Origin: a virus
Direction: 5' to 3' (one strand)
IMG/VR virus record: IMGVR_UViG_3300033182_000487
Coordinates: 49,149-113,148 of that record
Length of the DNA: 64,000 nt
The notes beneath the pieces were generated by a model that saw only the letters and a list, made by a program, of their open reading frames with translations, was not told where the DNA came from and ran no database searches. Numbering within the stretch: position 1 is the stretch's first letter; every line of letters starts with the position of its first letter. This document shows positions 32,837 to 60,746 of this stretch, one piece after another. The position numbers were made by a program, and so were the translations under genes.

Positions 32837-33024
32837 TGCCGACGAACGTGGTCAAGACCCCCGAGGATGAACGCCTGTGGCAGAAGGCTAAGACCCGTGC
32901 GAAGGAGCAGGGCAAGGCCGACAACTGCGGCTACATCATGGGCATCTACAAGCAGATGAACTCCGACCGCTTCAAGAAATCCGCACGTCGGGTCGCGCAG
33001 CGGTACGCCGCAAAGGCCCGGTGA
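32836..33024 (+). CDS. Small helical protein ending in ARRVAQRYAAKAR
   Basis: 62 residues, TGATG overlap with the previous gene. The first 45 residues have a pattern seen in many phage genes (LWQKAKTRAKEQ, then GYIMGIYKQM). The C-terminus SARRVAQRYAAKAR is the clearest example of the recurring RVAxRYxAK motif. Unknown function; may be packaged. Confidence 0.62.
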   Translation: MPTNVVKTPEDERLWQKAKTRAKEQGKADNCGYIMGIYKQMNSDRFKKSARRVAQRYAAKAR

Positions 33025-33027
33025 CCG

Positions 33028-34989
33028 ATGGGTCTGGCTGACATCGCCGCCGCAGTCGGTCGGCGGTCCTCTACGTCTGACTCCGATGCCGTAGACATCA
33101 TCACGTTCATCGAGGCTCCGTGGGGTCTCGGGCTCAAACTGTTCCCGGTGCAGAGGATCATCCTCAAGGCGCACTATGGAATGGCACTGGACGACAACCA
33201 ACTGGGCATCCCCCTGGACATCCCGGTTGACCAGACGCACCCCCAGTGGAACGACTCGTGGGCCGAGCACCTGGACGACGAGGGCTACTACAAGTGGCGC
33301 ATCGTGGTCACCGACTTCCGCCGCGAGAACACCGAGTGCATGACAGAGGCGGGCTACCTCCGCTTCCTCTACGACGAGGGCCGGTGCAACATCCGGGAGG
33401 TCGTGCCCGGCCACCAGCGCCGGGAGATGGTCCTGTCCGTGGGCCGACGGTCCGGCAAGACCCTGATCACATCGTGCGTGGTCGCCTACGAGACGTACAG
33501 GCTGCTGCTCAAGGGCAACCCCCAGAAGGTCTACGGCTCGTCCCAGAGCAACGTGATCCAGTTGATCTCGGTCGCGACCGACCGGGATCAGGCCGGGCTG
33601 CTGTACCGCGAAGCCAGCGGCCACTTCACGAAGTGCGACTTCTTCAAGCCCTACGCAGCCAACGCCACTCAGTCCTTCGCGACGTTCCAGACCCCGTTCG
33701 ACATCGAGCGGTACGGCTCCTACGCGGACAACCAGAAGGCCAGATACTCCATCAACGTCACCTTCCGCTCCTGCGTGGCGAAGGGGCTCCGTGGTGGTGC
33801 CAACCTCCTGGTCGCGCTCGACGAGGTTGCTCACTTCGGGGAGAAGGGGCAGGCCAGTGCCGACGAGGTCTACCAGGCGGTCGAGCCGAGCACTCGTACA
33901 TTTAGTCCCAAAGATCCAAAAAACCCAACCCGCCCGATTGGTGAGAACGAGGGTCGGATCATCCTGATCTCGTCACCGCTGGGCAAGCAGGGCCTTTTCT
34001 ACAAGCAGTACCGGTTGGGCTTCGGCAACAACAAGGCCGCCGACAACCTGATCTGCATCCAGGCCCCGACCTGGGAGGTCAACCCGACGGTGCCTGCCGA
34101 GACGTTCGTGGCGTCCTACCTCAAAGACCCCAACGTCTTCTTCACCGAGTTCGGGGCCGAGTTTAGCGACCGCACGAAGGGGTGGATCACGGACAAGGCT
34201 GATCTCGTCGCCTGCATCGACCCAGACCTGCGCCCGAAGCACAGTGCCCCTGCCCGGATGCCCCACTTCATGGGCCTCGACGTCGCGTTGGTGGGCGACT
34301 ACACGTCCGTCGCCATCGGACACAACGACGCCAACGGCAACGTGGTCCTCGACTACATCGACAGGATCAAGGCGGGCGAGGGGGACTACGAGCACCTCGA
34401 CCGACTGGAGTTCGACGACGTGGCCGACTGGGTCTATGACCTCAGCCGCAAGTTCTACATCAGCGAGGGCATGTTCGACCAATGGTCCGGCATCCCCATG
34501 GAGCAGGCGTTGAAGAAGCGCGGCCTCTCCACGCTCAAGTCGGTCCACCACACCCGGAACCTGTCGAGCCAGATGTTCCAGAACTTCAAGAACCTCATGC
34601 TCGACAAGAAGATGACCCTGTACGACTGGCCCATCCCGGACGGGGATGACCACTCGGCTCACATCGCCGAGTTGCTGGAACTCCAGGCCGAGTTCATCAG
34701 CAAGTACATCATCAAGGTCGAGGCCCCCAAGGTCGAAGGCAAGCACGACGACCTCTCGGACGCCCTGGTCCGCATGGTGTGGGTCGCCACGAACAACTCG
34801 GCGAAGCGGGTAGTCCTCGCCGGGCACCGCCGAGGGAACATGGGCCCCTCGGCTTCCTCTGGGGCGGGATCACGGTTCGGTCGTGTCCCTACCTCGCTCA
34901 AGGGTCGCTCTGGCTCTCACCCGGACCGCCAGATCCCGAAGACGCGGCGCGGGGGTGGACGAGGTTGCGGCGGTTCCGGTAGGCGGTAG
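33028..34989 (+). CDS. terL: Terminase large subunit
   Basis: 653 residues. ATPase: Walker A VGRRSGKT near 138-145, Walker B LLVALDEVAHF near 258-268 and the coupling motif ISSPLGKQG near 313. Nuclease: first aspartate in MGLDVAL near 417 and the later HDDLSDALVRM near 573-583, as in RNase H-like terminase nucleases. It cuts concatemeric DNA and pumps it into the prohead through the portal at 35915. A patch of unusual codons lies at 33892-33931, after Walker B. The C-terminal 50 residues are basic, serine/glycine-rich and probably disordered. Confidence 0.92.
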   Translation: MGLADIAAAVGRRSSTSDSDAVDIITFIEAPWGLGLKLFPVQRIILKAHYGMALDDNQLGIPLDIPVDQTHPQWNDSWAEHLDDEGYYKWRIVVTDFRRENTECMTEAGYLRFLYDEGRCNIREVVPGHQRREMVLSVGRRSGKTLITSCVVAYETYRLLLKGNPQKVYGSSQSNVIQLISVATDRDQAGLLYREASGHFTKCDFFKPYAANATQSFATFQTPFDIERYGSYADNQKARYSINVTFRSCVAKGLRGGANLLVALDEVAHFGEKGQASADEVYQAVEPSTRTFSPKDPKNPTRPIGENEGRIILISSPLGKQGLFYKQYRLGFGNNKAADNLICIQAPTWEVNPTVPAETFVASYLKDPNVFFTEFGAEFSDRTKGWITDKADLVACIDPDLRPKHSAPARMPHFMGLDVALVGDYTSVAIGHNDANGNVVLDYIDRIKAGEGDYEHLDRLEFDDVADWVYDLSRKFYISEGMFDQWSGIPMEQALKKRGLSTLKSVHHTRNLSSQMFQNFKNLMLDKKMTLYDWPIPDGDDHSAHIAELLELQAEFISKYIIKVEAPKVEGKHDDLSDALVRMVWVATNNSAKRVVLAGHRRGNMGPSASSGAGSRFGRVPTSLKGRSGSHPDRQIPKTRRGGGRGCGGSGRR

Positions 34990-35607: not shown

Positions 35608-35925
35608 TTGTCCCGTCTGCGTGCCACATTGTCTCCGACCGAGACAGACCGAGAGATTCAACTGGCCCTCGACCGAGCGGCCCGTGAGATCGAGTCTGCT
35701 CTCCGCGTGGCGTCGTCCGCTCCCATGGAGAGACATCGCAAGCGCGGCACGTTGAGTGACCTCCAGGGGGCACTGGACCAGATCACTCGGGTTCGGTATC
35801 TCAGCCCGGCGCGTCCCGAGCGCGAGTCCTACGAGGACTGGAAGGCGCGGCATGACAAGCGGGATCAAGAGCGGCGTGCGCGGCGCGAGCAGCGCGCTCT
35901 GAGGGAGCAGACCGATGTCGGATAA
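35608..35925 (+). CDS. Small charged helical protein upstream of portal
   Basis: 105 residues from TTG 35608 with GAGG upstream. Mostly helical, with RAAREIESALRVASS and a very basic/acidic C-terminal helix (DKRDQERRARREQRALREQ). It overlaps the portal start by 11 nt, so it is translationally coupled to it. It could be a portal-binding or head assembly factor. Confidence 0.6.
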   Translation: MSRLRATLSPTETDREIQLALDRAAREIESALRVASSAPMERHRKRGTLSDLQGALDQITRVRYLSPARPERESYEDWKARHDKRDQERRARREQRALREQTDVG

Positions 35926-37618
35926 GAACGAGGGCCAGCCCGTCGGGAAGGTCCGCAACGGCGACGGGAAGAAGAAGGCGAAGACAGGCAAGCCTCGCAA
36001 GATCACGTCGTCCATGATGCGGGCGAAGACCGCGTCCTTCGGAGCCCTCGGCAACGGTGGGTCCATGGAGGGCATCGGCGGCAACTTCTACTCGCCTGAG
36101 TTGTCCACCGACTTCCTGGAGTTGCCTCAGAGCCTCCACGAGCAGTGGAACTACTACCGCTTCTTCTACCGCACGGAGCCCTTCGTGGGTCAGGCGGTGG
36201 ACCTCCACACGGAACTGCCGATCAGCAAGGTCCGCATCGGCATGGCGAAGGCGAAGAACCGTGATCTCGCCGTGGCTGCGACCCGCTTCTGCGAGCGTTG
36301 GGCGCAGCGCATCAACCTGCTCGACCGCCTCCTGACCATCACCCACGAGCGGAACCTGATCGGGGTGGTGAACATCTGGTGCGAGGACGCCAACGAGGAG
36401 ATGCCTCGTGAGGTCCGCGAGGAGGAGGTCCGCATCCTCAAGGAAGACGGCGAGGCCGTCGAGGAATGGCAACTCCGAGGAGATGCCGACGAGCGCGCCG
36501 TGGCGTGGCTCAAGAAGAACTACAAGGGCTGGACCAGTGTGCGGGTGTTGCCACCCGAGCAGATCAAGATGCAGTCGTTCAACTTCACGGACGAGCGCAT
36601 CTTTGAGTTGATCCCGGACAGCAAGACCAAGGCCATCATCGAGAAGTACCAGCAGGGCGACAAGGACGCGAAGCGCATCGTGGAGTCGATGCCTCCTGCT
36701 GTGGTCAAGGCGGTCGTCGAGGGGTCCAACATCCCGCTCAACACTGACCCCATGGCGGGGTCATACATCTACTGTCTGGTGAACCGGAAGTCCGACTACG
36801 ACCCGGAGGGCCGCTCCATCCTGGGTCGGTGCATGAGGATCCTCGTGTACCGGGACAAACTCCGGCAGGCCCAGACCAGCATCGCCTCCCGGCACATGAC
36901 TCCGATTCGGATCGTCTACGGGGAAGACCTCGACGCGGCTGATGTCGAGGCGTTGCGCGAGCAAGTGGACATGGCCCTGCAAGACCCTGACTACTCCATC
37001 ATCGCGAACTTCCAGATCAACTGGGAGGAGATGGGTGCGGACCAGCGGTTGCTCGACCTCAATGGCGAGTACGACCTGACCGACCGCCAGTTGTACGCGG
37101 GCCTCGGGGTCACCGAGGGGTTGCTCTCGGGTGAGTCCTCCTACAGCGGGGACAGGATCAACCTGGAGGTCATCAACACCCGGTACATGCTCCTGCGCGA
37201 GCAGTTGCAGGACTTCGTCGAGAAGCACCTGTTTGAGCCGATGTGCCGTCGCATGGGTTTCATCGAGGAGGACGAGGACGGAGAGGAGCGCGTCGTCGTG
37301 CCCACGCTGTCGTTCACCCGACTGGCTCTGCGGGACAACCGAGACACCTTCGACGCCCTGTACAACCTGTACCAGAAGGGCTCTCTTGACGTGGACACCA
37401 TCCTGGAGTTGCTCAACCTCGACCCCGTGGCGGTGCGCGAACGCATCGAGCGCGACCTGTTCACGGTCAACGACCCCACGTTCAACGAGGTGCTGCGCGG
37501 CGTCTACGGCGACACGGGCCGGGCGATTGCCGAGAACTCCGACGCTGCCGAGAAGATCGCGAAGGTGCTGGGGCTCAAGTACGAGCCACCGAAGGAGGAA
37601 GGCGGGGGCCGCTTCTGA
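35915..37618 (+). CDS. Portal protein
   Basis: 567 residues. A basic, disordered N-terminus is followed by a helical and strand core: the YRTEPFVGQAVDLH helix near 90, a DRLLTITHERNLIG region near 140, VNRKSDYDPEGRSILGRC with the following long helix, a DYSIIANFQINWEEMG strand, a QLYAGLGVTEGLLSGES segment typical of portals, and a stem/crown helix region. The C-terminus is acidic. The portal forms the dodecameric DNA channel used by the terminase. Position directly after terminase genes supports the call. Confidence 0.82.
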   Translation: MSDKNEGQPVGKVRNGDGKKKAKTGKPRKITSSMMRAKTASFGALGNGGSMEGIGGNFYSPELSTDFLELPQSLHEQWNYYRFFYRTEPFVGQAVDLHTELPISKVRIGMAKAKNRDLAVAATRFCERWAQRINLLDRLLTITHERNLIGVVNIWCEDANEEMPREVREEEVRILKEDGEAVEEWQLRGDADERAVAWLKKNYKGWTSVRVLPPEQIKMQSFNFTDERIFELIPDSKTKAIIEKYQQGDKDAKRIVESMPPAVVKAVVEGSNIPLNTDPMAGSYIYCLVNRKSDYDPEGRSILGRCMRILVYRDKLRQAQTSIASRHMTPIRIVYGEDLDAADVEALREQVDMALQDPDYSIIANFQINWEEMGADQRLLDLNGEYDLTDRQLYAGLGVTEGLLSGESSYSGDRINLEVINTRYMLLREQLQDFVEKHLFEPMCRRMGFIEEDEDGEERVVVPTLSFTRLALRDNRDTFDALYNLYQKGSLDVDTILELLNLDPVAVRERIERDLFTVNDPTFNEVLRGVYGDTGRAIAENSDAAEKIAKVLGLKYEPPKEEGGGRF

Positions 37619-41160: not shown

Positions 41161-42614
41161 CCTTGTCTGCTGTGTCCCTATCGAGGACCGCTTCACGCTT
41201 CTCCGACCAGTACGAGTCTGCGGGGACGCTGGGTGGCGTGGACCCATCCCTTGCGAAGGAGATGGCTCAGTCCGGGTTGCTGGACGGCGACTCGGAGGAC
41301 GACAAGATCCCCACGTCGTCGAAGCCCATCAAGTCCGTCCAGTTGAACCCATCGCAGACGACCCTCGTGCTGAAAGACGTGGTGGGCATCGCTCTGGAGA
41401 TGCTGCTCAAGCGGCAGGGCCTCGGGGAAGACCTGGGAGCCCTGGTGTCCTCCGACCGCTACATCATGGACGGGCACCACCGCTGGGCCGGGAGCATCCT
41501 CGCTCATGGCCCACGAGCCTCAGTGAAGGTGTGGCTGTCCTCCCTGCCGGGGAAGGAACTCGTCCGGGTGTTGAACATCGTGAGCAAGGGGGCCTATGGG
41601 GTCACCTCCGGGAACACAGGCACCGGGTCCATCAACGACTTGACCCCAGCCAACGTCCGCCGCCAGTTGGAGACGTTCCTCCGCGAGGGGCGGCAGCACA
41701 AGCATTTCTCACCCTCAGCCGAGCAGGTGGCGAAGATCCTGGAGACCAACTTCGGGTCGGTGGAGAACGGGGTCAACGTGCTCGCCGAGCGGGCGAAGTT
41801 GATCCCGAAGGCGGTCCCCTCCTGGGCCCCTGTCCGGGACCAGATGCCGGTCATCCGCCGGAAGAAGGTCCAGGACGCAGCGAAGTTGCTCACTCAGGGG
41901 GTGGTGGACTGGGCCCCGCCCTACTCCGACTCCGAGCGCAGGGCTTCATTCGGTAGTGCGTCTATGGCCCCCCTCCCCGTAGGAGAGACATCCATGCGTC
42001 CTGATCCCACCCGCGTTGCAGCCCGATACGCTTCGCAGTCGAAGACTGCTGGCATGGTCCGTACTGCGGGCGAGGTCCGCTTCATCAAGGACCGCAGCGG
42101 TGACGCTGGCGAGTGGGCTTTCGGCCCTCCCGGTCCCAGCGAGCGTGACATCCAGCAGGACTTCGTGTTCAACGCGAAGCACCTCAAGCCACTGGCCCAG
42201 ACCCTCCGGTCTGCGCTGATGGCCCTCGGTCACGTCACCAGCGCCTACAACAAGTTCGTCAAGATCAAGAGCCGCAACGTGTCCCCCGACGGGTCGCTGG
42301 GCGGCAAGGGGTACATTCAGAAGATCCCCGACATGCGACGGCAACTGATGAACTGCGTGGAAGCACTCTCCGCTCTGACCGACACCATCTACGACGAGAT
42401 GACTGCACCTCACTGGAACCCCACCGAGGACACCCTCGACCCCCGCGACCGTGAGGAGGTCAAGGAGATCATCGAGGACGCCGAGGAGATCAAGGACGAT
42501 CCCGAGGCGTGGGCGTCCGGTCAGGAAGAAGAACTCGACGCGGAAAACGAGGAGGCGATGGGCAAGACCGCTCGCCGTGTGATGCTTCGGTACGCGAACA
42601 GGAGGCTCGCATGA
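41157..42614 (+). CDS. ParB-like domain protein fused in frame to a second virion protein
   Basis: 485 residues from GTG 41157. Residues 1-260: a SLSRTASRFSDQ start and a ParB/sulfiredoxin-like domain with YIMDGHHRWAG near 102-112, the family's nucleotide-binding motif. Residues 261-279 are the translation of what looks like an intergenic region: it contains a perfect motif B at 41951 and the ribosome site AGGAG before ATG 41994. Residues 280-485 are a second, separate-looking protein ending in TARRVMLRYANRRLA. A TAG stop lies in another frame inside the motif B. This may be a recent gene fusion by indel. Confidence 0.65.
   Translation: MTLSAVSLSRTASRFSDQYESAGTLGGVDPSLAKEMAQSGLLDGDSEDDKIPTSSKPIKSVQLNPSQTTLVLKDVVGIALEMLLKRQGLGEDLGALVSSDRYIMDGHHRWAGSILAHGPRASVKVWLSSLPGKELVRVLNIVSKGAYGVTSGNTGTGSINDLTPANVRRQLETFLREGRQHKHFSPSAEQVAKILETNFGSVENGVNVLAERAKLIPKAVPSWAPVRDQMPVIRRKKVQDAAKLLTQGVVDWAPPYSDSERRASFGSASMAPLPVGETSMRPDPTRVAARYASQSKTAGMVRTAGEVRFIKDRSGDAGEWAFGPPGPSERDIQQDFVFNAKHLKPLAQTLRSALMALGHVTSAYNKFVKIKSRNVSPDGSLGGKGYIQKIPDMRRQLMNCVEALSALTDTIYDEMTAPHWNPTEDTLDPRDREEVKEIIEDAEEIKDDPEAWASGQEEELDAENEEAMGKTARRVMLRYANRRLA
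41951..41965 (+). promoter_or_regulatory. Motif B promoter-like element inside a reading frame
   Basis: CGGTAG at 41951, CTAT at 41962-41965, spacer 5. It lies inside the open frame 41157-42614, 28 nt before an internal ATG with AGGAG. Confidence 0.6.
41994..42614 (+). CDS. Internal-start product of the fused gene: RVA-motif protein
   Basis: 206 residues if translation begins at ATG 41994 (AGGAG at 41981). The start DPTRVAARYASQSKTAG and the end ARRVMLRYANRRLA are both copies of the recurring RVAxRY motif. The middle is helical, with LKPLAQTLRSALMALGHV and an acidic DREEVKEIIEDAEEIKDD region. It has the same layout of promoter, leader and start as other late genes, so it is probably made separately even if the longer fusion also is. 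Confidence 0.5.
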   Translation: MRPDPTRVAARYASQSKTAGMVRTAGEVRFIKDRSGDAGEWAFGPPGPSERDIQQDFVFNAKHLKPLAQTLRSALMALGHVTSAYNKFVKIKSRNVSPDGSLGGKGYIQKIPDMRRQLMNCVEALSALTDTIYDEMTAPHWNPTEDTLDPRDREEVKEIIEDAEEIKDDPEAWASGQEEELDAENEEAMGKTARRVMLRYANRRLA

Positions 42615-44794: not shown

Positions 44795-47176
44795 ATGTCG
44801 TTTGGGCCCTCAGCACGAAGGGTAGCCCGCCGTAAGCAGGCGGACGCGGACCACGCCACCTCCATCGCTCTGATGAAGTGGCTGTCGAAGCAGACAAAGA
44901 GTCTGGGGATCGCGCAGCACGTCTACATCGTGGGCGGTGCGGTGCGGAACTTCGTGCTGGACCAGCCCATCAAAGACATCGACATGGTGGTGGACTCGCT
45001 CGCCCTGCGGGGCAACCGCGACTCCGAGTGGGTGGCACAGCGCCTCGCCCAGCGGATTCCCGGCTCCGCGATGCCGAAGATCCACACCTCCAACCTGGGG
45101 GTGTCCACCATCAAGATCACAGGCGACTGGCTGCTCGACGGCAACCAGATGAAAGGCAAGGACATCGACATCGCGAACGCCCGTGAGGAGGAGTACGCGG
45201 TGGACCCCGCGACGGGCGAGTACACCGGACACAAGCCCATCAAGGTGAGCCCGACCACGATGGAGATCGACGTCTCCCGCCGTGAGTTCACGTTCAACAC
45301 GCTCATGTGGTCGCTGATGTCGGTCGCCGACGGCCCCGACAAGGCTGAAATCATCGACATCACTGGCTGCGGTCTGCGCGACTTGAAGAACCGCGAGATG
45401 CGCTGCCCCAGCGATCCCGACGAGACGTTCGCGCAAGACCCCACCCGGATCATCCGCACCATCAAGTTCGCCTTCAAGTACGGCATGAAGTTGCCACCCG
45501 ACGTGAAGGCCGCAGCGAAGCGGCAGGCGAAAGGGCTCAAGCGCATCCCGTCGAAGGCGTGGACCGTGCTCCAGACCATCGTGTTCGACAACCCTCAGTA
45601 CAAGAAGGCCCTCGACGTCATGGCTGACCTCGGGGTCACGGACGTGCTGGCCGAGATGATGCAGTCGGACAAGCAGTTCCGCTCCACCCTGGGCAAGTAC
45701 TCCCAGGGCCGGGGGTTGGCCTACATGTTCGACCTGATGGACGTGGGCATTCCCGTTGACGAGCCCTTGAAGTTCCTCGACGCGGACCAGCGGAAGCGTC
45801 TCCGAGAGGTCACGACGGGCATGGACCGCGATGACGCGATGGCCTACCTGGAGGCGTTGAAGAACCCCGGCAAGGTCTACGACCGCAAGTTCATCCCCAC
45901 CCTTGCCAACAGCCTCGGCTACGGCGGCAAGCAGATGCGGAACTTCATGCAGACGGTCACCCCGCTTGGCCGGGAAGCCCTGCTGCGTGACCCCAGCCTC
46001 AAGGACAACCCGTCGGCACTGATGCGCGAGGTCGAGCAGGCTGCGAAGCGAGCCCTCCCTACTCGGGTGGCGATGCGGTGGGCCTCCGAGAACGAGCCTA
46101 CTGACCCTGGCCTGTGGGCGAAGGTGCAGGCCCTCGCCAAGGGTGAGCAGAAGTCCATGACCCACGACGGCAAGACCATCGAGGCTCCCAACGACGGTGC
46201 GGGCTTCAAGGTGTTCCCGAGCGCCTACGCCAACGGCTGGGCGAGCAAGACCTACGGTGATCTCGGCGGCGGCTGGAAGAAAAAGGCTTCCGCATCTCGC
46301 ATCGCTGATGCGTGGGGTCCGATGCTCCGTGAGGCACGCAGCCAGAACCCCTATGCCACTGATTTCGGGGGTAGTTGGACCATCAAGTTCGACGTTGGAC
46401 GGATGGAGCCTCTGCTCTGGACACCTTCTGGGTTCAAGGATTCCCGCAAACTGGACTACACGCGCTCGTCACGCAGTCCGAAGGACTTCCGTACACAGGC
46501 GGAAGCCAACCGTGAGATCCAGACAGAGGTGTTGGACTTCATCCGAGACTACAGGTCAGATCAAGCAGACCTGATTCGTGGGTGGGGTTCTCGTACCGCT
46601 CGCGGCAAGGCGAAGAAGGACGTGGGCCACGGCGGGCTGGACGAGTGGTTTAGCGGCCACGGCGGGGCCAAGGGGAAGGGCGAAGGTGCTACCTGGGGTG
46701 ACTGGGTGGCCATCTCCCCCGTGACGAAGACCCTCGACTCTGGGAAGAAGGTCGAGAAGGGCGACATCGTGGGCGACTGCGGCATCTCCGATGACCCCGA
46801 CTGGAAGGAGATCACGAAGGGCGGCAAGGATCCGCTCAAGTGTATGCCTCGCCAGAAGGCCCACGACATGCCGAAGGCCGAGCGCGCCGAGAAGGCGAAA
46901 GCGAAGCAAAGGGCCGAGAAGGCTGACTCCAACCGGGGCAAGAAGCCAACCATGACCCCGACCTTCCAGAAAGAGAAGGGCAAGAAGAAGGCGTCTTCAG
47001 ATTGGTACTACCCGTGGGATGTGGCGAGCGGCTGCATCTGGGGGTCGGGCGCGTTCAAGTCCGTTGAGCCTGTCGAGACCTGTGGCGTTGAGAAGTCAGC
47101 GACGGTGCAGCGCATCCAGATGAAGCGGGAAGCCTCCGCACGGCTCCGCGCTGCGTGGCGAGGCGACCGTGGCTGA
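44795..47176 (+). CDS. Nucleotidyltransferase (CCA-adding/poly(A) polymerase-like) virion-module protein
   Basis: 793 residues; ribosome site AGGAGG. The N-terminus SARRVARR is an RVA motif. Residues 43-230 match class II tRNA nucleotidyltransferases: VGGAVRN (47-52) with DIDMVVD (61-67) carrying the metal-binding aspartates, RREFTFNTL (162-170) and DPTRIIRTIKFAFKYG (215-230). A helical neck follows. After a second RVA motif (PTRVAMRWASE) come units common in phage proteins: AYANGWASKTYGDLGGGW and GLDEWFSGHGG with a cysteine-containing tail. A codon-atypical patch lies at 46316-46610. It may modify RNA 3' ends; the substrate is unknown. Confidence 0.75.
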   Translation: MSFGPSARRVARRKQADADHATSIALMKWLSKQTKSLGIAQHVYIVGGAVRNFVLDQPIKDIDMVVDSLALRGNRDSEWVAQRLAQRIPGSAMPKIHTSNLGVSTIKITGDWLLDGNQMKGKDIDIANAREEEYAVDPATGEYTGHKPIKVSPTTMEIDVSRREFTFNTLMWSLMSVADGPDKAEIIDITGCGLRDLKNREMRCPSDPDETFAQDPTRIIRTIKFAFKYGMKLPPDVKAAAKRQAKGLKRIPSKAWTVLQTIVFDNPQYKKALDVMADLGVTDVLAEMMQSDKQFRSTLGKYSQGRGLAYMFDLMDVGIPVDEPLKFLDADQRKRLREVTTGMDRDDAMAYLEALKNPGKVYDRKFIPTLANSLGYGGKQMRNFMQTVTPLGREALLRDPSLKDNPSALMREVEQAAKRALPTRVAMRWASENEPTDPGLWAKVQALAKGEQKSMTHDGKTIEAPNDGAGFKVFPSAYANGWASKTYGDLGGGWKKKASASRIADAWGPMLREARSQNPYATDFGGSWTIKFDVGRMEPLLWTPSGFKDSRKLDYTRSSRSPKDFRTQAEANREIQTEVLDFIRDYRSDQADLIRGWGSRTARGKAKKDVGHGGLDEWFSGHGGAKGKGEGATWGDWVAISPVTKTLDSGKKVEKGDIVGDCGISDDPDWKEITKGGKDPLKCMPRQKAHDMPKAERAEKAKAKQRAEKADSNRGKKPTMTPTFQKEKGKKKASSDWYYPWDVASGCIWGSGAFKSVEPVETCGVEKSATVQRIQMKREASARLRAAWRGDRG

Positions 47177-50100
47177 CCCGAAGCGCCTGGCAACCCTCCA
47201 CAAGCAGGGGGGCATCTACAAGCCGATGTCGGAGATCACGCCCGGCACTCAGGACTTGCTCGATTCGCCGACCCCGGCGTGGCTGGACCGCGACTACCCC
47301 TACGTCGCCCCTCCCGGAGAGGAGCACACGCTCCAGGAACTCAACTACCTCGTCTCGCTGATCCCGCTCCGTGAGAAGTGGGGCCCCTTCATCAAGGCTG
47401 CCGACGAGGACGTGGCAGGTCTGTTCGTGACTCTGTGCTCCGAGTTGGGTGCTCCCTGTGATCCTGATGCGCTCCATGAGATGGCCGACGAGGCCGCCAT
47501 CCTGATCACGAAGTTGAAGTGGCTCTACAACAGGCCGCGCCCCTACCAGATCGCCGAGAAGCACCAGCGCCTTGAAGGACAGGGCAGCGTGTGGCGACCC
47601 GGCGATTTCCCCGTCATGGGCACCGCGTCCGCGCACTCCCCGGCGTACCCGAGCGGCCACACCATCCAGTCGTTCCTGTTCGCTTCCCGACTGAGCGAGA
47701 CGTCCCCGCAGCACCGCAAGGCGTTCATGGACCTCGCCGAGAAGGTGTCCTTCTCCCGAGCCGTCGGCGGCTACCACTGGCCGTCTGACCTCGCGTTCGG
47801 CAAGGACATCTTCCGCCACATCGTCATGCCCCTGATGCCCTCGGCGGTCCGTGTGGCAAAGACCTTCACGGTGAACAAAGGCGACCCCATCTGGTACGGC
47901 AAGTACCAGAACAAGCGTGGGATCATCGACGGATTCAGCACCAACGACAAGGGCGACACCCTCATCACCGTCGAGCAGGTGCCCAACGAGTCTGGGCGCA
48001 AGCAGCCGAAGGAGATGAAACTGTTCAAGGTGCGCCCCCGCAAGGTCGAGGAGAAGAAGGCCGGGGGATCACGGACGCTCTACTACGTCGGCAAGCGCCC
48101 GGCACAGCCGAAGCCGAAGCGCGCCGAGTGGCGTCAACGAGGCCAGGACACTCCCGACTGGGTGCGTCCGTGGCTCGACGCCCCTGTGTCGAAGGGTGTC
48201 TTCCTGACCTCCAACCCGTTCCTCGTCGCTCCGAAGCACGGTGTGTTCGGGCACGTCTACGCCTACGAGGTTCCCCAGTGGGTCATCAAGGAGGCCAAGG
48301 GCATCCACCGCAAGGACGGGGCCAGCGAGGTCTTGATCCCCGAGCCGCTGTGGGAGCATGTGAAGTTCAAGGGCAAGTCCATGAGCCAGGACGACTTCCT
48401 GGACCAGGTCTACGGCAGCGACGACGCCGCCTTCACCCGGTCGCGGGGGAACAGGTACAGGACAAAGGCGGACTGGGAGGCCAGCAGGATGGCGTCTGTC
48501 CCGAAGAAGTACGAGCACATCGACTTCAAGCCCCCGGAGGGCGTGGCAAACGCCGCCGCGAAGGGGCTGGAACTGCGCCAGAAGGCCAGTCCGTCGAACC
48601 GTGGTGGCCTGACCCCAGCCGAAGCCAGCAAGCAGGGCATCGGCTCCGGCGTCCAGCGAGCGGTGAACCTCAAGAACCGTGATCCTGTCTCGCCGAAGGT
48701 CATCAAGCAGATGAAGGGCTTCCTCTCGCGCTCCGAGAAGTCCAGCGAGATCAGTGCGGAGAACCGGGGAACACCGTGGAACGACAAGGGCTACGTCGCG
48801 TGGCTGTTGTGGGGCGGTGATCCCGCGAAGGCGTGGGTCGAGAAGGTCATCAAGCAGATGGACGCCGCCGACGAGAAGGAGAAGCAGTCGAAGCAGGCTG
48901 CGGTCCGTTCGGCTGCGTCGAAGGCCCTGTCCAAAAAGGAAGTCCCGAAGGCGGATGGGAAGGGCACCACGACCGTCTACGAGTACGGCCCCCGCCAGGT
49001 GGCCGAGCGCCACAGGGAGAAGGCCGTCCGCATCGAGGCCCTCCGCAAGAAGATGGCCGACCTGCGCCAGAAGGCTCGTGGTGATCTCACCGCGAGTGAC
49101 CCTGAGACCAGGCTCACCGCGTTGGCGGTGTGCCTGATGGACGAGACCTACGAGCGCGTGGGCAACGAGAAATCCGCAAAGGACGGGCACTACGGGGTCA
49201 CCAACTGGACGGCGGACCACATCACGCTGTCGGACAAGGCGGCGACCATCCGGTACACCGGGAAGTCCGGCGTCAAGCACGAGAAGAAGGTCACCAACGC
49301 CCGTGTGCTCTCGGCACTCCGCAAGGCCCTCAAGGGCAAGGGCAAGGGCGACAAGGTGCTCTGCGACGGGGACGAGTGCTCGATCCTCGCCAAGGACGTG
49401 AACGCCTACCTCAAGCCCTACGGGATCACGGCGAAGGACATCCGTGGGCTCCACGCCAACGAGGAGATGAAGCACCACCTCAAGGCCCAGCGCAAGGCGG
49501 GTCCGGCTGACCTCCCGCACTCGCGCAAGGAGAAGGACCAGATCCTCAAGGCCGAGTTCCAGGCTGCGCTTGATCTCGCTGCTGCCGCTGTGGGCCACGA
49601 GGCTTCCACACTACGCAGTCAATACCTCGTACCCAGTATGGAAGCGTCCTACACACATGACGGCACGGTGCTCGACCGGCTCGACAAGAAGGCCACCCTC
49701 TCCGACTCCGAGAAGGAGGACCGGGAGACCGAGCGCCTGGTCCGCCGGTCTCCGAAGAAGAAGCCGCCTCGTCGTGACAAGGAGCGGGGCCGGATCGAGG
49801 GCGTCGAGGATGACCCCGACCCCGACGAGAAGCAGGACCAGAAGGATCGGTCGAACAACTACAAGGATGCGGCTGCCCGGCTCGCCCTGCGGTATCTGAC
49901 CGCAGGTGCAGCGAAGTCGAAGCGCCGCCGGAACAGGCCCCCCTCGGAACGCGAACTCGCCCGACGGAAGCAGCAGTCCGACGCCGCGAAGGCAAAGAAC
50001 CCGAAGCGCAAGGCCCCGCCGAAACTCAAGGAGGCTCCCGCCCCGAGCGGTGACCGTGAGGAACGCAAAGTCGGAGACGTCTGGGAAGGCAAGGACGGCA

Positions 50101-51458
50101 AGTGGTCTGCGAAGGGCGACGACGGCGTGCAGCGTGGCTTTGCGTCCCAGGACGCCGCGAAGGCGTGGTTGTCGGGCGGTCCGAAGCCGGGCGAGTCCGA
50201 TGCCCCGGAGTCGTCGAAGCCCCCGAAGACGGAGGAGCAGCAGGCCGTAGCGAAGATCAACGCGATGGTCGAGAAGTTGACCGCTGAGTCGAGCGAGGTG
50301 CTGCACAACCTGGACACCCAGACCCTGGGTGCCGTGGAGGAGGCGCTGGGCGACATCGCCGCACGGGTCACCGATATGGCCCTCAAGGCATTCTCCGTCA
50401 AGCAGTTGGAGGAGCAGGCACGGTTCGCCGAGTCTGTGCTACGCCGGGATGGGGAGCCCCCTACCCCGGCTGAGATCGCCAATGCGCTGCTCACGCTCCG
50501 GGCTAAGGAAGTCCGCAACGACCCCTTGCTCCTGGACCCGAAGAACCCCATCAGGAACCTGCCAAAGGAGCCGCTGGACTTGAAGGGGGACGCCCACAAG
50601 AAGCACATGAGCCAGATGGGTGACGCCTCCGTGAGGGCCATGTACGAGTACAGGGAGATGCCGAAGGACGACCGTGACGCCCACCGCGAAGGTCTCCGCA
50701 AGCACATGGAGGAGTTGGAGAAGGAAGGCGCGACTGACACCGAGCAGTACCACATGACCCTGGCTCAGTTGCGAGGGCTCCAGGTGGCTTCTGCCATGGA
50801 GGACGGAGACCAGGCCGTTGGGATCAGCCCGACCTTCCAGGTCATGCTCAAGGCTGCCGAGTCACAGGGTCAGGACGTGCTCAAGCAGTTCGTCAAACTC
50901 AACCTCACAGGTGCTGCGGAAGGGGACGTCCCTGCACAGCAGCAGTTCCGGCAGGTGCTCCGAGACACCGATCCGCAAGCACTGGCGAGAATCCTCCCCG
51001 AGGATCACCCGGCATACGAGGCCATCCAGGCGCTCACCGGAAACCATCTGGAGAACAGCAAGCAGAAGGCGCTCTGGATGAAGCACATGGACTCCGAGTC
51101 CCAGGAGATGATCCAGACCCTCATGGAAGATCTGGTCATGGATGACCTCATGTTCACGGACATGGACCTGGTTCGTGGTGGCATGGAGGTCGGGGACATC
51201 AAGGGGAAGGGCAAGAAGAAGCGCATGGAGCGCAGACGCAAGTTGGAGGACAAGAGCACCTCCGTCATGGCCCAGGTGATGGCGAAGGCGAAGGAGAAGG
51301 GGAACAACACCCTCTACACGCTGTCCTCCGGTTACTTCGGCAAGAAGACCAACTCCGGTCAGAAGCGCCCCACCAGCGGCAAGCCCCCTTCCAGTGGCAA
51401 GAAGGCATCCCCCGATCCGCTTTACGCTTACGACTTTCAACCCTGGGGGGCCCTGTGA
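47169..51458 (+). CDS. PAP2 phosphatase-topoisomerase IB fusion virion-module protein
   Basis: 1,429 residues from GTG 47169. Residues 105-220 carry all three PAP2 motifs: K115-x6-R122-P123, PSGH 161-164 and S196-R197-x5-H203-x3-D207. Residues 340-395 and 475-560 are two units common in phage proteins (FLTSNPFLVAPKHGVFG; AWLLWGGDPAKAW). Residues 580-830 are a poxvirus-like topoisomerase IB: R663 in YERVGNE, K699 in TGKSG, R759 in TAKDIRG, H810 and catalytic Y819 in LRSQYLVP. An RVA-like motif (AARLALRYLTAG) follows, then a long disordered and helical tail. Probably packaged and active on host membrane lipids and on DNA supercoils. Confidence 0.82.
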   Translation: MADPKRLATLHKQGGIYKPMSEITPGTQDLLDSPTPAWLDRDYPYVAPPGEEHTLQELNYLVSLIPLREKWGPFIKAADEDVAGLFVTLCSELGAPCDPDALHEMADEAAILITKLKWLYNRPRPYQIAEKHQRLEGQGSVWRPGDFPVMGTASAHSPAYPSGHTIQSFLFASRLSETSPQHRKAFMDLAEKVSFSRAVGGYHWPSDLAFGKDIFRHIVMPLMPSAVRVAKTFTVNKGDPIWYGKYQNKRGIIDGFSTNDKGDTLITVEQVPNESGRKQPKEMKLFKVRPRKVEEKKAGGSRTLYYVGKRPAQPKPKRAEWRQRGQDTPDWVRPWLDAPVSKGVFLTSNPFLVAPKHGVFGHVYAYEVPQWVIKEAKGIHRKDGASEVLIPEPLWEHVKFKGKSMSQDDFLDQVYGSDDAAFTRSRGNRYRTKADWEASRMASVPKKYEHIDFKPPEGVANAAAKGLELRQKASPSNRGGLTPAEASKQGIGSGVQRAVNLKNRDPVSPKVIKQMKGFLSRSEKSSEISAENRGTPWNDKGYVAWLLWGGDPAKAWVEKVIKQMDAADEKEKQSKQAAVRSAASKALSKKEVPKADGKGTTTVYEYGPRQVAERHREKAVRIEALRKKMADLRQKARGDLTASDPETRLTALAVCLMDETYERVGNEKSAKDGHYGVTNWTADHITLSDKAATIRYTGKSGVKHEKKVTNARVLSALRKALKGKGKGDKVLCDGDECSILAKDVNAYLKPYGITAKDIRGLHANEEMKHHLKAQRKAGPADLPHSRKEKDQILKAEFQAALDLAAAAVGHEASTLRSQYLVPSMEASYTHDGTVLDRLDKKATLSDSEKEDRETERLVRRSPKKKPPRRDKERGRIEGVEDDPDPDEKQDQKDRSNNYKDAAARLALRYLTAGAAKSKRRRNRPPSERELARRKQQSDAAKAKNPKRKAPPKLKEAPAPSGDREERKVGDVWEGKDGKWSAKGDDGVQRGFASQDAAKAWLSGGPKPGESDAPESSKPPKTEEQQAVAKINAMVEKLTAESSEVLHNLDTQTLGAVEEALGDIAARVTDMALKAFSVKQLEEQARFAESVLRRDGEPPTPAEIANALLTLRAKEVRNDPLLLDPKNPIRNLPKEPLDLKGDAHKKHMSQMGDASVRAMYEYREMPKDDRDAHREGLRKHMEELEKEGATDTEQYHMTLAQLRGLQVASAMEDGDQAVGISPTFQVMLKAAESQGQDVLKQFVKLNLTGAAEGDVPAQQQFRQVLRDTDPQALARILPEDHPAYEAIQALTGNHLENSKQKALWMKHMDSESQEMIQTLMEDLVMDDLMFTDMDLVRGGMEVGDIKGKGKKKRMERRRKLEDKSTSVMAQVMAKAKEKGNNTLYTLSSGYFGKKTNSGQKRPTSGKPPSSGKKASPDPLYAYDFQPWGAL

Positions 51459-51566: not shown

Positions 51567-52001
51567 ATGTCCAGACTGACCCGACGGGGAGCACGCAACC
51601 TGACTGCTACCCTCGACCGCATCGCTTCCACCGTGCAGGAGAACCCCGCTCTCCTCGGCATTGACCCCAAGATCGCAAAGGACTTCGCGTACCGCTGCGA
51701 CCTGATCTCGGACGCCGTTGAGCGTACCGCCGTCGCCAACTTCCCGAAGCAGGCCGACGAGAACAGCGCCATTCCCAGTGCTGGCGGTGACTACGAGGTC
51801 GCGAAGCCCGGCATCGAGAAGGAGATCGGCGCTGAGGTCAAGGGCCCCACCTACGAGGAAGACCCCTCGGACGGTGAGGACATCAAGGGCCACTTCACGC
51901 AGGCCGACTTCCACCAGTTGACCGAACTGGCTGAGAAGTTGAAGACTGCTGCCCAGAGCATCACGGTCGTCAACGATCACGGATTCAACCTCACCAAGTA
52001 G
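51567..52001 (+). CDS. Small virion-module protein
   Basis: 144 residues; ribosome site GGAG. A basic N-terminus (SRLTRRGARNLTATLDRIAS) resembles the other arginine-rich heads in this module. The middle has a helix with two aromatics, the rest is acidic (EEDPSDGEDIKG) and ends with a FHQLTELAEKLKTAAQS helix. It opens the head operon (protease, scaffold). Probably a core or internal head protein. Confidence 0.58.
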   Translation: MSRLTRRGARNLTATLDRIASTVQENPALLGIDPKIAKDFAYRCDLISDAVERTAVANFPKQADENSAIPSAGGDYEVAKPGIEKEIGAEVKGPTYEEDPSDGEDIKGHFTQADFHQLTELAEKLKTAAQSITVVNDHGFNLTK

Positions 52002-52009
52002 GAGGCACC

Positions 52010-52585
52010 GTGCGTCGGTTTGCCGAAAACTACGTCAACTACCAAGAGCGGGCCACCGAGTACTCCGTCGGAGACGTCGTGGTGCCGTTTGGTTTGTGGG
52101 ATTCCCAGAGCGGTCGAGTCACGGCTGTCTGGCCCGCTATTGGTATGGTGGACGTAGAGTTCCCGTCCGGCAACGCACGCTTCCCTGTTGAGGAACTCCA
52201 GCGTATGGGCGCTGATGGGCAAGCAGAGCCCCCCAGAACGGACTCGGCTCCGGGCGGGGGAGGCTCTGTCTCTGTTCCCGGCGGCCCGTACCCGGACAAG
52301 AAGAAGTCCGCCAACCGTGTGGCACAGGCGTTCGTCAAGCAGTCCCTTTACTGGGCGCAGAAGGATCGCCAGTACCGCATGACCCGCCCCGAGGTCAGTG
52401 CAGGACATCCCAACTGCCCTCGCTGTGATCACGGCCCTCTGAGCCGGACGGTCTACAAGCGCCGGGACGGCACCTCCGACCACCTTCTCGGGTGCAAGGG
52501 CTGCATGTTCCTGATCAAGGACGCCGACATCGTGAACTTCGGACCTGTAAGCGCCGAGGAGATCGAGATCGAGGGGCAGGACTGA
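52010..52585 (+). CDS. SH3-like and zinc-ribbon protein before the prohead protease
   Basis: 191 residues from GTG 52010 with AGGAGG. Residues 15-65 form an SH3-like barrel (YSVGDVVVPFGLW, GRVTAVWPAIGMVDVEFP). A glycine-rich linker leads to SANRVAQAFVKQSLYW, another RVA motif, and a C-terminal zinc ribbon (CPRCDHGPLSR, then LGCKGCMFLI). The ribbon pairs C-x2-C with C-x2-C. It overlaps the protease start (TGATG). Unknown role in head assembly. Confidence 0.6.
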   Translation: MRRFAENYVNYQERATEYSVGDVVVPFGLWDSQSGRVTAVWPAIGMVDVEFPSGNARFPVEELQRMGADGQAEPPRTDSAPGGGGSVSVPGGPYPDKKKSANRVAQAFVKQSLYWAQKDRQYRMTRPEVSAGHPNCPRCDHGPLSRTVYKRRDGTSDHLLGCKGCMFLIKDADIVNFGPVSAEEIEIEGQD

Positions 52586-55287
52586 TGGCGTTCCTCAAGC
52601 GAGCCAGTGCAGTAGTCGTCCACCCCCGCATCTCAGGGCGCGGTTGGGGCGGCATCCGCAAGACCGCATCCTCGGGATCATCGCGAAACCTGACCGACCA
52701 GGCGCGAGAAATCCTCGGGACATCGCTGTCCTCCGACGACTACCTCGTGACCCACTGCACCATCGTGGCGTCTGTGGATACCGACAAGGCCCCCAACGTG
52801 AAGTTGGGCAACGTCAAGGTCGGCACCCAGACGGTCAACCGTCGGTGGGACGACTACCTGATCAAGCCTGAGTGCTCGCAGTTCGTGAACAACAACGGCG
52901 ACTCGTGGAGCCGTGCGGTGTTGAAGATGGCGTACCCGACCTTCATCGGGGCGCACAACTTCCGCGAGCACGTCCAGATCGAGGAGCAGTCGAAGGGCCG
53001 GATCATCGACGCTGTGGCGCGTGACATCGGCGACTCGCTCTATGTGGACATCCTCGTCGCCACGAACCGCAAGCACGCGGCGCTGGTGCAGGACATCGAA
53101 TCCGGGAAGATGGCAACCCTCTCCATGGGCTGCTTCCTGCCGGGGACCATGGTGTCCCTTGCCGATGGGACTCGGATCCCCATCGAGGACATCCAGCCCG
53201 GCGACATGGTTCTGACCCACAAGGGTCGTGCCCGCCCCGTCGTGAACCAACAGATCCGTCGTCGCCACTGGACCTTGCGGCATATCACCGCCGTCGGAGT
53301 CCCCGAAACCATCTCGGCCACGGACACACACCCGTTCTTCGTGTTTCGCGCCCCGGAGGTTTGCGCCTGCGGCTGCGGTGAGCGCCTTCCCGAAATCAAG
53401 AACCAGACCCTTCGTTCCATGTCCCGTCGGTTCAAGCGCGGCCATGACAAGCGGGTCTTCAATCCCATGACTACCTACTCGTTGGATGAGTGCCGTGAAC
53501 GCACGGATCGTCTTGCGAACATCATGTCGGATGTGGAGATGGAGGAGGTTCGAGCAGCCGAACTCAAGGTCGGTGACTTCCTCTGCTTCCCTCGTGCTCA
53601 GTTTGACGGGGAGATTCCCGCAGAAGGGGTCACTGAAGGCCGCGCTCGCCTTCTCGGGTACTACTTGGCCGAAGGCAGCCTTATCAAGTACAAGGGTGCG
53701 CCCACTGGAGTGGAGTTCTGCTTTTCCCTCGATGAGCAGGACACCTACTGCGCTGAGGTGGCAGACCTTCTTCGGACGGAGTTCCCCGGAAACGAGCCTC
53801 GCCTCCATACCCGAGAGGACAGGAATACCTGTACGGTGATTCTGTCTGGTGCGGACACCGCGCAGTGGTTCCTTGATCATGGTGGTGAGTATTCTCATCG
53901 CAAGAGACTCCACCCTGATGTGGTCCGCTGGCCTGTGTCCGTTCAGAAGGCTCTTGTTGGGGCATGGGTGAATGGTGACGGCACCCTGACCAAGAAGGGT
54001 GTGACGGAAGGGGTGACCACCTCTTACGATCTCGCATGTCAGATGCACCTGATCGCTTCTCGGTGCGGGGCCTTCGTGAACACCTATGCGACTGTCCGTG
54101 GTCGTAAGGTGGCCGTTCGTGAGGTCGTCAACGGCGGCGTGGTGGTTCGGGATGAGGCGACGGGGCGTTTCCCCGCGTTCACCCTTCGTATGGGTCAGAC
54201 GCAGGCGCAAGTGTTTGCGGGACATACCGACAAGGTTGTGTCTGACCCTCACTTCAAGTCTCAGGGGGTGCGGGTTACGGACGATGTGGTGATGTTCCCG
54301 ATCACAGCCATCGTAGATGAACCATACTTCGGCTTCGTCTACGACTTGGAAGTTGATGAGGACCACTCATACATCGTGGAAGGTGTTGCCGTACACAACT
54401 GCACCACCGACTTCACGACCTGTACGAAGTGCGGCCACTTCGCTGTGGACGAGACGCAACTGTGTGACCACATCAAGTACGCGAAACTCAACACCTTCAT
54501 GGACGACAGCGGCCAGAAGCGTGTGATCGCAGAACTCTGTGGGCACGAGACCTACCACGACAACCCGGACGCCCCCGGTGGGGTCAGGTTCATCGAGGCC
54601 AGTTGGGTCGCGGTTCCTGCGTTCCCCGGCGCGGTGATGCGGAACATCCTTGATCCCAGCCAGGCGACCGACGACCAGGTCCGCAAGGTGCTCGCCTCTC
54701 CCCCTGCTCAGTGGTCTGACCACGCCGTGCAGAAGGCTGCGTCGATGACGGCTCTCGCCTTCGACTTCGGGGGTGACGACGAGGAAGACGAGGCCCCCGC
54801 GAAGGACGAGACGCCGAAGCCTCCGTTCCAGGAGGTCGAGGACGCGGTGTACGAGGCCCTCAAGGTCCGGGTCAAGGAACGTCTGGAGCGTGATCTCGCC
54901 CAGAGGGCTATCGAGGAGTCGGAGCCTGCCGACGCCATGGGCCCCAACGACAACATCATGAAGGAAGCCGCGTCTCACCACATGGCTTCCGTCAACACGC
55001 TTGTACGGGTAGCGTCTTCCCCAGTCGCACTGGTGGATGGTGTGGCCGCGATTGATTCCGCACACGGGATCAAGGTGGCACGGCATCTCTACCGGGTGGC
55101 ACTGGAGGCGGGCATTCCCACCAATCACCCATCTCTTGACCGTTACCTGTTCGCCTGTAAGAAGGCCGCTGGTCGCGGACTGAGTCCTGCCGAAACTCGG
55201 GTTGTGATCCGGCTCGGCACCTTGCTGGCTCGTTGGGCCAGCGTCAACAACCCCAAACCCCACTATCCTAAGAGGAGACTGCCATGA
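52585..55287 (+). CDS. Prohead protease precursor interrupted by an intein
   Basis: 900 residues as encoded; ATG 52585 overlaps the previous stop. Removing the intein (183-605) leaves a 477-residue protein. N-extein: FIGAHNFREHVQ near 130 (candidate catalytic histidine) and a VDILVATNRKHAALV helix, then ATLSMG, where S180 is the likely nucleophile; the intein follows two residues later. C-extein: cysteine-rich CTTDFTTCTKCG and CDHI, then a FIEASWVAVPAFPGA strand. An acidic linker and a helical C-terminus follow. The gene precedes scaffold and capsid genes, as prohead proteases do. The catalytic assignment is inferred. Confidence 0.75.
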   Translation: MAFLKRASAVVVHPRISGRGWGGIRKTASSGSSRNLTDQAREILGTSLSSDDYLVTHCTIVASVDTDKAPNVKLGNVKVGTQTVNRRWDDYLIKPECSQFVNNNGDSWSRAVLKMAYPTFIGAHNFREHVQIEEQSKGRIIDAVARDIGDSLYVDILVATNRKHAALVQDIESGKMATLSMGCFLPGTMVSLADGTRIPIEDIQPGDMVLTHKGRARPVVNQQIRRRHWTLRHITAVGVPETISATDTHPFFVFRAPEVCACGCGERLPEIKNQTLRSMSRRFKRGHDKRVFNPMTTYSLDECRERTDRLANIMSDVEMEEVRAAELKVGDFLCFPRAQFDGEIPAEGVTEGRARLLGYYLAEGSLIKYKGAPTGVEFCFSLDEQDTYCAEVADLLRTEFPGNEPRLHTREDRNTCTVILSGADTAQWFLDHGGEYSHRKRLHPDVVRWPVSVQKALVGAWVNGDGTLTKKGVTEGVTTSYDLACQMHLIASRCGAFVNTYATVRGRKVAVREVVNGGVVVRDEATGRFPAFTLRMGQTQAQVFAGHTDKVVSDPHFKSQGVRVTDDVVMFPITAIVDEPYFGFVYDLEVDEDHSYIVEGVAVHNCTTDFTTCTKCGHFAVDETQLCDHIKYAKLNTFMDDSGQKRVIAELCGHETYHDNPDAPGGVRFIEASWVAVPAFPGAVMRNILDPSQATDDQVRKVLASPPAQWSDHAVQKAASMTALAFDFGGDDEEDEAPAKDETPKPPFQEVEDAVYEALKVRVKERLERDLAQRAIEESEPADAMGPNDNIMKEAASHHMASVNTLVRVASSPVALVDGVAAIDSAHGIKVARHLYRVALEAGIPTNHPSLDRYLFACKKAAGRGLSPAETRVVIRLGTLLARWASVNNPKPHYPKRRLP
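53131..54399 (+). mobile_element. Intein with LAGLIDADG endonuclease in the prohead protease
   Basis: 423 residues in frame. Cys1 begins CFLPGTMVSLADGTRIPIED (block A); a TDTHPF block B follows near residue 66; two dodecapeptide motifs, LGYYLAEGSL and VGAWVNGDGTL, mark a LAGLIDADG homing endonuclease; block F is FGFVYDLEVDEDHSYIV and the end is VAVHN, followed by Cys+1 of the C-extein. All residues for protein splicing (C1, terminal H-N, C+1) are present, so it should be active. Base composition is less GC-biased than in the exteins, consistent with transfer. Confidence 0.9.
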
Positions 55288-57613: not shown

Positions 57614-58486
57614 ATGTCTGTGAACAACAGCGTAAAGGCGAAGTTGATCAGCGAGTACATCGGCACTGCGTCCGGTCGTGCAAAGTTGGCTGCTTCGATG
57701 ACCCAGCCCCTCCGTCTTCGTCGCGACTACATGGCCGTTGGCCGGAAGACATTTCTTGTGGAGCAGTTGCCTGATGGCGCGCTCCCGATCTACGACAAGG
57801 ATGCGGACGTCACCGCATACGTCGTCGGCGAGGAGGGCGAGAACATCATCGCCGTCACCAAGCCGCGTCGTGTGATCTTCCCGCTCTTTGAGATCGCGTC
57901 CAACCCCGAGATCCCGCTCACCCAGATCAAGGAGCGCCGCTTCGACCTGATCGAGCGTGCTCAGGATCTGGCTCGTGCCCAGATCCAGGCTGCGGAAGAC
58001 GAGCGTGTCTTCGCCGTCCTCGATGCCATCGCCACCAACGGCTTCGACAGCGTGGGAGCCGTCAACGCGGACATCCCCGTCGTCGCTCCCCTCAGTGGTG
58101 ACGTCCTCGCCGACGCATTCAGCCTGATCGAGCGCCATGATCTGCGGGTTGCCCGTGTGTTCATGAACGCCCGTGACTACGCTGACCTGCGGAAGTTCGG
58201 ACGCGACATCCTGGACATCGAGACCCAGCGCGACCTGCTCAAGACCGGTCTGATGGCTACCCTCTGGGGTGCCCAGATCATCGTCAGCCGCCTGGTTCCC
58301 GTGGGCACGGTCTACGTCTGCTGCGAGCCGGAGATGTTCGGTCGGATGCCTGTCCGCACGGAACTCACGGTCCTCAGCGCCGACGACCCGAAGGCCCGTA
58401 CCATCGGTTTCTCGTGCTTTGAGAACCTCGGTATCGGCGCGTTCAACCCTCGCGGTCTGGTCCGTCTGACCATCACCCGTCCGTAG
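57614..58486 (+). CDS. Major capsid protein (HK97-type)
   Basis: 290 residues; ribosome site CAGGAG. The sequence fits a short HK97-fold capsid protein: an N-terminal helix, an E-loop-like strand region (LPIYDKDADVTAYVV), the spine helix (FDLIERAQDLARAQIQAAED), a P-domain and A-domain with LARVFMNARDYADLRKFG, a GLMATLWGAQIIVSRLVP strand pair and the C-terminal strand ending LVRLTITRP. A strong terminator follows and a stable leader precedes, as expected of the most expressed gene. A protease site may lie early in the chain but is not visible. Confidence 0.8.
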   Translation: MSVNNSVKAKLISEYIGTASGRAKLAASMTQPLRLRRDYMAVGRKTFLVEQLPDGALPIYDKDADVTAYVVGEEGENIIAVTKPRRVIFPLFEIASNPEIPLTQIKERRFDLIERAQDLARAQIQAAEDERVFAVLDAIATNGFDSVGAVNADIPVVAPLSGDVLADAFSLIERHDLRVARVFMNARDYADLRKFGRDILDIETQRDLLKTGLMATLWGAQIIVSRLVPVGTVYVCCEPEMFGRMPVRTELTVLSADDPKARTIGFSCFENLGIGAFNPRGLVRLTITRP

Positions 58487-58618: not shown

Positions 58619-58697
58619 GTATACCTGTCTGAAACACTGCCGGGTTGTATACGTTTGCGGAGATTTCGCGGCTTCGGTACAATGGCAGCATGTATAC
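58619..58697 (+). promoter_or_regulatory. Three GTATAC palindromes upstream of the methyltransferase fusion
   Basis: GTATAC at 58619, 58647 and 58692, the last overlapping the start codon at 58690. Such AT-rich palindromes are rare in this GC-rich sequence. They could be operator sites for autoregulation or sites of methylation. Confidence 0.4.
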
Positions 58698-60639: not shown

Positions 60640-60746
60640 GACGTTCTTGCGCGATCTCGGCACGGGCCTTCCGCTCGCTGCTCCGACGGGCGAGGATGCA
60701 GAGCAGATGGGTACTGTCCCTTGACCAAAGGGGTGTAGGAGTTGCC

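Follow-up and report, generated by a model that had tools for sequence, protein, structure and literature searches.

Phages and conjugative elements encode polyvalent proteins, which are predicted to be packaged into virions and injected into the host (Iyer et al. 2017, PMC5512222). A related principle is known from the internal proteins and Alt of phage T4, the Dar proteins of P1 and the ejection proteins of SPN3US, which are prohead cargo ejected together with the DNA (PMC12810830, PMC10052503). The type IB topoisomerase (TopIB) of vaccinia virus, H6R, counts among the established virion enzymes (PMC1540416). Finally, HAD_SAK, 2H and CCA enzymes have been reviewed as tRNA-repair tools of jumbo phages (PMC7824862 section 3.4.9).

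Here we describe a phage gene that joins a PAP2 domain and a TopIB domain in a single polypeptide. It lies in a 64,000-nucleotide stretch of DNA (the window), which corresponds to bases 49149-113148 of a 113,148-base virus contig. With a probability of roughly 0.55, we favour the view that the product is a polyvalent head-module protein, which is packaged and ejected with the DNA, and in which TopIB relaxes DNA while PAP2 acts as an RNA-end or nucleotide phosphatase.

Two enzymes in one head-module polypeptide

The gene is embedded in a head module with the following members:

33028..34989, + strand: terminase large subunit (phrog_2, 1.1e-21)
35915..37618, + strand: portal protein (Portal_Mu matched weakly; LR745208 has a syntenic counterpart with 62% identity)
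44795..47176, + strand: class II nucleotidyltransferase of the CCA-adding / poly(A) polymerase type, 793 aa (PF01743, 3.7e-14; phrog_2244, 9.3e-25)
47169..51458, + strand: PAP2-TopIB fusion gene (GTG start, 1429 aa)
51567..52001, + strand: conserved small head-module gene (synteny in relatives)
52010..52585, + strand: conserved small head-module gene (synteny in relatives)
52492..55287, + strand: head maturation protease, intein-interrupted (phrog_18299, 3.5e-6; Intein_splicing PF14890, Hint)
57614..58486, + strand: major head protein (phrog_2522, 2.1e-54)

With its GTG start the fusion gene reaches 8 nt into the end of the upstream nucleotidyltransferase gene, stop codon included (GTGGCTGA). 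The NCBIfam pcnB/CCA matches of the latter stay below their cut-offs, and CCA addition and polyadenylation are not separable for this enzyme. The fusion gene is located between portal and prohead protease, and relatives, among them the 485-kb phage LR745208, have the same gene order. The protease intein has Hint and LAGLIDADG-like parts; it is also found in one relative (L013) and is absent from most relatives examined. Right behind the major head protein follow a LAGLIDADG/DNA-methyltransferase-like gene (58645-60639) and a thymidylate kinase-like gene (60402-61346).

The fusion protein is composed of these segments:

47265..47867, + strand: PAP2 / class A acid phosphatase-like domain (Pfam, family profile, invariant residues, acid phosphatase matches)
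47859..48041, + strand: small all-beta domain directly after PAP2 (profile matches in 26/67 loci of the family)
48069..48437, + strand: domain with LYYVG...VFLTSNPF...SEVLIPE (family profile)
48504..48902, + strand: 'GTPW' domain (profile; unrelated phages have it in head modules too)
48972..49691, + strand: TopIB catalytic domain (Pfam, invariant residues, profile match, fold search)
49692..49895, + strand: conserved 'tail' segment (PPRxDxxRxR...KDRSNNYKDAA), ending in an RLALRY tag at residue 904 (profiles)
50394..51176, + strand: conserved C-terminal helical region, then a [WY]DFxPWG-type C-terminal motif

The matches to both PF01569 (PAP2) and PF01028 (Topoisom_I) exceed the curated Pfam cut-offs. 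Together with the position between portal and protease, this confirms the proposal of an initial annotation that two complete enzyme domains reside in one virion-module polypeptide. The annotation had also regarded neither domain as decayed, and since PAP2 and TopIB share one ORF in seven other non-identical loci, chance and decay are both excluded. An assembly artefact was considered as well and ruled out, as several independent contigs carry the fusion. No family for the protein was found in PHROGs.

A constant core with exchangeable partners

A peptide scan of viral contigs with the whole protein yielded one locus only, and an alignment of the TopIB domain was therefore needed to search for relatives. 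Scanning with this alignment retrieved 142 relatives in viral contigs of up to 619 kb, all of them metagenomic and unannotated. Eighty of the 142 were fetched and, combined with earlier loci and two matches in MAG contigs (one labelled Actinomycetota; possibly mis-binned phage), gave 67 distinct sequences, in which the window stands in for its nearest full-length relative. TopIB is fused in 54 of these and solo in 13. Domains were called with home-made iterated profiles, which agree with the Pfam counts.

Among 47 N-terminal parts scanned, Pfam identifies PolyA_pol in 12, 2_5_RNA_ligase2 in 11, PAP2 in 8 and HAD_SAK_1 in 4, besides a single InPase, a single NUDIX and a GNAT case; the set is dominated by RNA-end enzymes. 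C-terminal parts contribute InPase, RNA ligase and metallopeptidases, and tRNA_lig_CPD also belongs to the fusion partners. Nucleotidyltransferase, 2H and HAD_SAK, components of an RNA end-healing set, are frequent in the family; RNA ligase occurs in one fusion only, and no ligase was identified in the gene of the window. TopIB is the constant core, around which nucleotidyltransferase, 2H, PAP2, HAD, pyrophosphatase, NUDIX and other domains are exchanged. In one locus (L068) GTPW, nucleotidyltransferase, 2H, PAP2 and TopIB form a single ORF in this order, and L029/L038 and L040 have the nucleotidyltransferase joined directly to PAP2-TopIB. 2H is found beside PAP2 in two loci (L055 and L068); most PAP2 loci are without 2H within reach.

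A tree of the TopIB domains requires at least 30 changes of the nearest N-terminal partner over 10 labels. A well-supported clade around the window comprises PAP2 (the window and L034) as well as HAD_SAK_1 (L035), each with a nucleotidyltransferase upstream and in an otherwise similar context. PAP2 and HAD_SAK_1 are unrelated phosphatase folds, and their swap is the best clue to the function of PAP2; taken over all loci, HAD and PAP2 do not exclude each other significantly (P=0.22). The fusion belongs to a widespread, mix-and-match family of head-cluster enzymes of very large phages.

The partners and the HAD swap suggest that PAP2 acts on RNA ends or nucleotides, and the swap next to a tRNA-type nucleotidyltransferase turns this into a testable prediction, namely that PAP2 dephosphorylates RNA ends or nucleotides. 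Class A acid phosphatases, the closest solved relatives of the domain, are broad nucleotidases. PAP2 might accordingly target signalling nucleotides or nucleotide pools (alarmones, defence second messengers or dNTPs) rather than RNA ends, as the neighbouring NUDIX, pyrophosphatase and 2H domains might do. The presence of NUDIX and InPase in the same protein family fits such a role, and an action on nucleotides has been proposed for the 2H and InPase domains of polyvalent proteins (PMC5512222). Yet the commonest partners, nucleotidyltransferase, 2H and HAD_SAK, indicate RNA ends, and we consider signalling nucleotides or nucleotide pools as the target possible but on balance unlikely.

Head-module segments and a recurrent tag

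The small all-beta domain of the fusion protein turns up close to nucleotidyltransferase or 2H domains at other loci as well. A structure search gives a weak lead to an SH3 barrel of the EF-P/eIF5A type (Foldseek ranks 35, 40, 42 and 43), and a PDB sequence search with this domain returned chance matches only. The following domain (48069..48437) is possibly ART-like, as judged by eye; it is located C-terminal to TopIB in L035, and residues 300-440 have no match among solved structures in the PDB. In a relative whose TopIB part is 88% identical to that of the window (L001), a clean insertion, ART-like by eye, occupies residues ~210-355 between TopIB and tail; it is absent from the window.

The 'GTPW' domain is shared with head modules of unrelated phages, i.e., Vibrio phages, Synechococcus phage S-CBS4 and Roseobacter phage CRP-406. 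Most of 74 matched phage GenBank records carry 'GTPW', and the checked examples adjoin portal or capsid genes; in CRP-406 the domain is the N-terminus of an ORF annotated as major capsid protein. In most phages whose TopIB is solo, an ORF of its own encodes the 'tail' segment. The C-terminal motif [WY]D[FL]xPW (e.g., YDFQPWGAL or WDFAPWG) is common to the fusion protein of the window and to L010, L011, L001, L019 and L029.

A short tag, R-[VI]-A-x-[RK]-[YFW] with R or K as first letter, recurs at termini and domain junctions of head-module proteins. In the 67 loci it appears 115 times in sense and once in antisense frames, a count in which the copies just ahead of TopIB are homologous and hence not independent; those next to InPase, zincin, NUDIX and 2H domains stand in different contexts. 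Twelve copies lie at most 25 residues from a stop. When the pattern is relaxed slightly, 97 of the 100 copies found in frames with TopIB fall outside recognised domains. Nearly all copies in the record of the window belong to head-module genes; copies in the window include those at residue 904 of the fusion protein, in 41157-42614, in the nucleotidyltransferase (44795-47176) and in a 62-aa gene (32836-33024) that terminates in SARRVAQRYAAKAR. The tag is a candidate signal for packaging or processing.

Alternatively, the protein could be a late cytoplasmic enzyme that is not packaged, with TopIB assisting replication or packaging of DNA and the other domains acting late in the cell. Solo TopIB genes are positioned between TerL and portal (L017 and L026), a setting that fits the favoured head-module view; their adjacency to the terminase would also suit a packaging role, and TopIB is otherwise encoded by jumbo phages (PMC7824862). 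The fusion with tags and a head-module domain (GTPW) and the location ahead of the protease in most fused loci (the protease lies inside the fetched stretch for 38 of 54) argue against a purely cytoplasmic enzyme, which we regard as doubtful.

The PAP2 domain resembles soluble acid phosphatases

PF01569 matches residues 110-211 of the fusion protein (3.8e-12). The initial annotation had called the PAP2 signature complete, and its three motifs, K117-x6-R124-P125, P161-S162-G163-H164 and R197-x5-H203-x3-D207, are indeed invariant in 8 aligned sequences; the conserved K-x6-R-P has K117 as its first residue rather than the overlapping K115, and S196 of the presumed 'S-R' is unconserved. The catalytic residues comprise K117, R124, S162-G163-H164, R197, H203 and D207. 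In PDB sequence and structure searches the PAP2 part resembles the Pseudomonas aeruginosa acid phosphatase (7f17/7f18), PhoN and PhoC, and the best structural matches of the predicted model (moderate confidence, pLDDT 70) are class A acid phosphatases. Phage GenBank records searched with the PAP2 part alone gave no match. At this level of model confidence, the domain appears to be a soluble all-helical core closest to PhoN/PhoC.

According to the initial annotation, the delivered PAP2 enzyme would alter lipid carriers of the host membrane or cell wall. Lipid phosphatases do exist within the PAP2 superfamily, and LpxE and Bacillus PgpB are weak matches in the PDB searches. Soluble acid phosphatases match far better, however (2.6e-25 vs 9.5e-9 for LpxE), and the slot of PAP2 is filled by RNA-end and nucleotide phosphoesterases in relatives. 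Furthermore, no hydrophobic or transmembrane segment is found in the protein (maximal Kyte-Doolittle value 0.96 in a 19-residue window), which makes a lipid role unlikely. The genomic context and the example set by polyvalent proteins make delivery of the enzyme plausible; the lipid-carrier target is unsupported and very improbable.

A minimal type IB topoisomerase

PF01028 matches residues 613-814 (3.8e-22), and the catalytic pentad R, K, R, H(N), Y is present in order. All five residues named before, R663, K699, R759, H810 and Y819, proved invariant in 16 aligned sequences. The structure prediction suggested at the time likewise returned both folds; TopIB is modelled with a pLDDT of 88, and its matches among solved TopIB structures reach E values as low as 8e-11, the best being those of Deinococcus radiodurans, poxvirus and human. 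A PDB sequence search retrieves Deinococcus, archaeal, poxvirus and human TopIB. By core match and pentad the domain is a type IB topoisomerase, with predicted relaxing activity. A second, divergent TopIB gene (491 aa; G000:C1:2371-3846, L003) is carried by the same virus record outside the window.

The N-terminal DNA-clamping domain of viral and bacterial TopIB is accessory, not catalytic. The N-terminal domain of ~65 residues of the poxvirus and Deinococcus enzymes is absent from the fusion protein, and the profile match begins at residue 63-69 of 2h7f/2f4q. Solo TopIB relatives are also devoid of it, with mostly 15-30 residues ahead of the core. Lacking this domain of the known viral enzymes, the phage TopIB may have an altered activity. 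Site-specific tyrosine recombinases or resolvases share the fold, XerH gives weak matches, and one Phage_integrase match belongs to the genome's other TopIB. A recombinase is nonetheless extremely improbable, as Topoisom_I leads the matches by a wide margin and the five catalytic residues are those of TopIB.

A proposed role at the onset of infection

Context and architecture match those of polyvalent proteins, and from this gene order and domain arrangement we infer that the fusion protein is packaged in the particle and ejected (PMC5512222). The protein would be made late and probably taken into the prohead, where the R-V-A-x-[RK]-[YFW] tags may aid uptake or serve as processing linkers; protease cleavage that releases the domains is possible. 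Ejected together with the DNA, the protein would protect the infection. PAP2 and the upstream nucleotidyltransferase, in some relatives along with 2H, may strip RNA ends of their terminal phosphates or act on other nucleotide phosphates, and the removal of phosphate could reverse damage or signals produced by host defences.

The poxvirus virion TopIB is thought to relieve torsional stress on DNA. By analogy, the minimal TopIB of the fusion protein would release torsional stress in phage DNA that is incoming or transcribed early, and the relaxation of incoming DNA, which the initial annotation had put forward, is a reasonable inference.

A more specific version of the proposal is that an RNA-end repair kit of nucleotidyltransferase, 2H and PAP2/HAD is carried in the particle, fused to TopIB and addressed to the prohead by the new tag. 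We offer it tentatively and deem it rather unlikely; if true, repair of host-damaged tRNA could begin before any phage gene is expressed. The recurrent tag, in turn, could show how these phages select their cargo.

Comparison with known systems

In the open-licence literature searched, we found no description of a phage TopIB in a head-module polypeptide, of a PAP2-TopIB fusion or of PAP2 linked to RNA repair, and the passages found in the papers on PaBG, RsoM2USA and Atu_ph07 do not report TopIB in particles. With its variable combinations of enzyme domains among relatives, the protein has the architecture of polyvalent proteins, which are multi-domain, linked to terminase or portal genes, and mix 2H, InPase, GNAT, peptidase and NTase domains in one polypeptide as seen here (PMC5512222). 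The constant TopIB core and the PAP2/HAD_SAK partners are the feature of the window family; in the text of PMC5512222 'topoisomerase' appears in a reference title only, and 'PAP2' and the word 'phosphatase' are absent.

The RNA/tRNA repair equipment of jumbo phages comprises the same set of enzymes, a HAD Swiss-army-knife phosphatase, 2H, a CCA-type NTase and RNA ligase (PMC7824862). These sets were described without a head-module TopIB fusion, whereas in the window family the enzymes are fused or adjacent to TopIB, and PAP2 occupies the position of the phosphatase in some members. The class A acid phosphatases PhoN, PhoC and 7f17/7f18 share their soluble PAP2 fold and the three catalytic motifs with the window protein; they are secreted, stand-alone enzymes, while the PAP2 domain of the window is embedded in a phage polypeptide.

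The cargo logic proposed here is common to the internal head proteins of T4, P1 and SPN3US, from which the present system differs in its tag candidate. The poxvirus virion TopIB (vaccinia H6R) is of the same enzyme family and has the same catalytic residues, but is free-standing and equipped with the N-terminal DNA-binding domain, in contrast to the TopIB of the window, which is without this domain and fused to other enzymes. If packaged, the fusion protein would be a phage counterpart of the topoisomerase in poxvirus virions.
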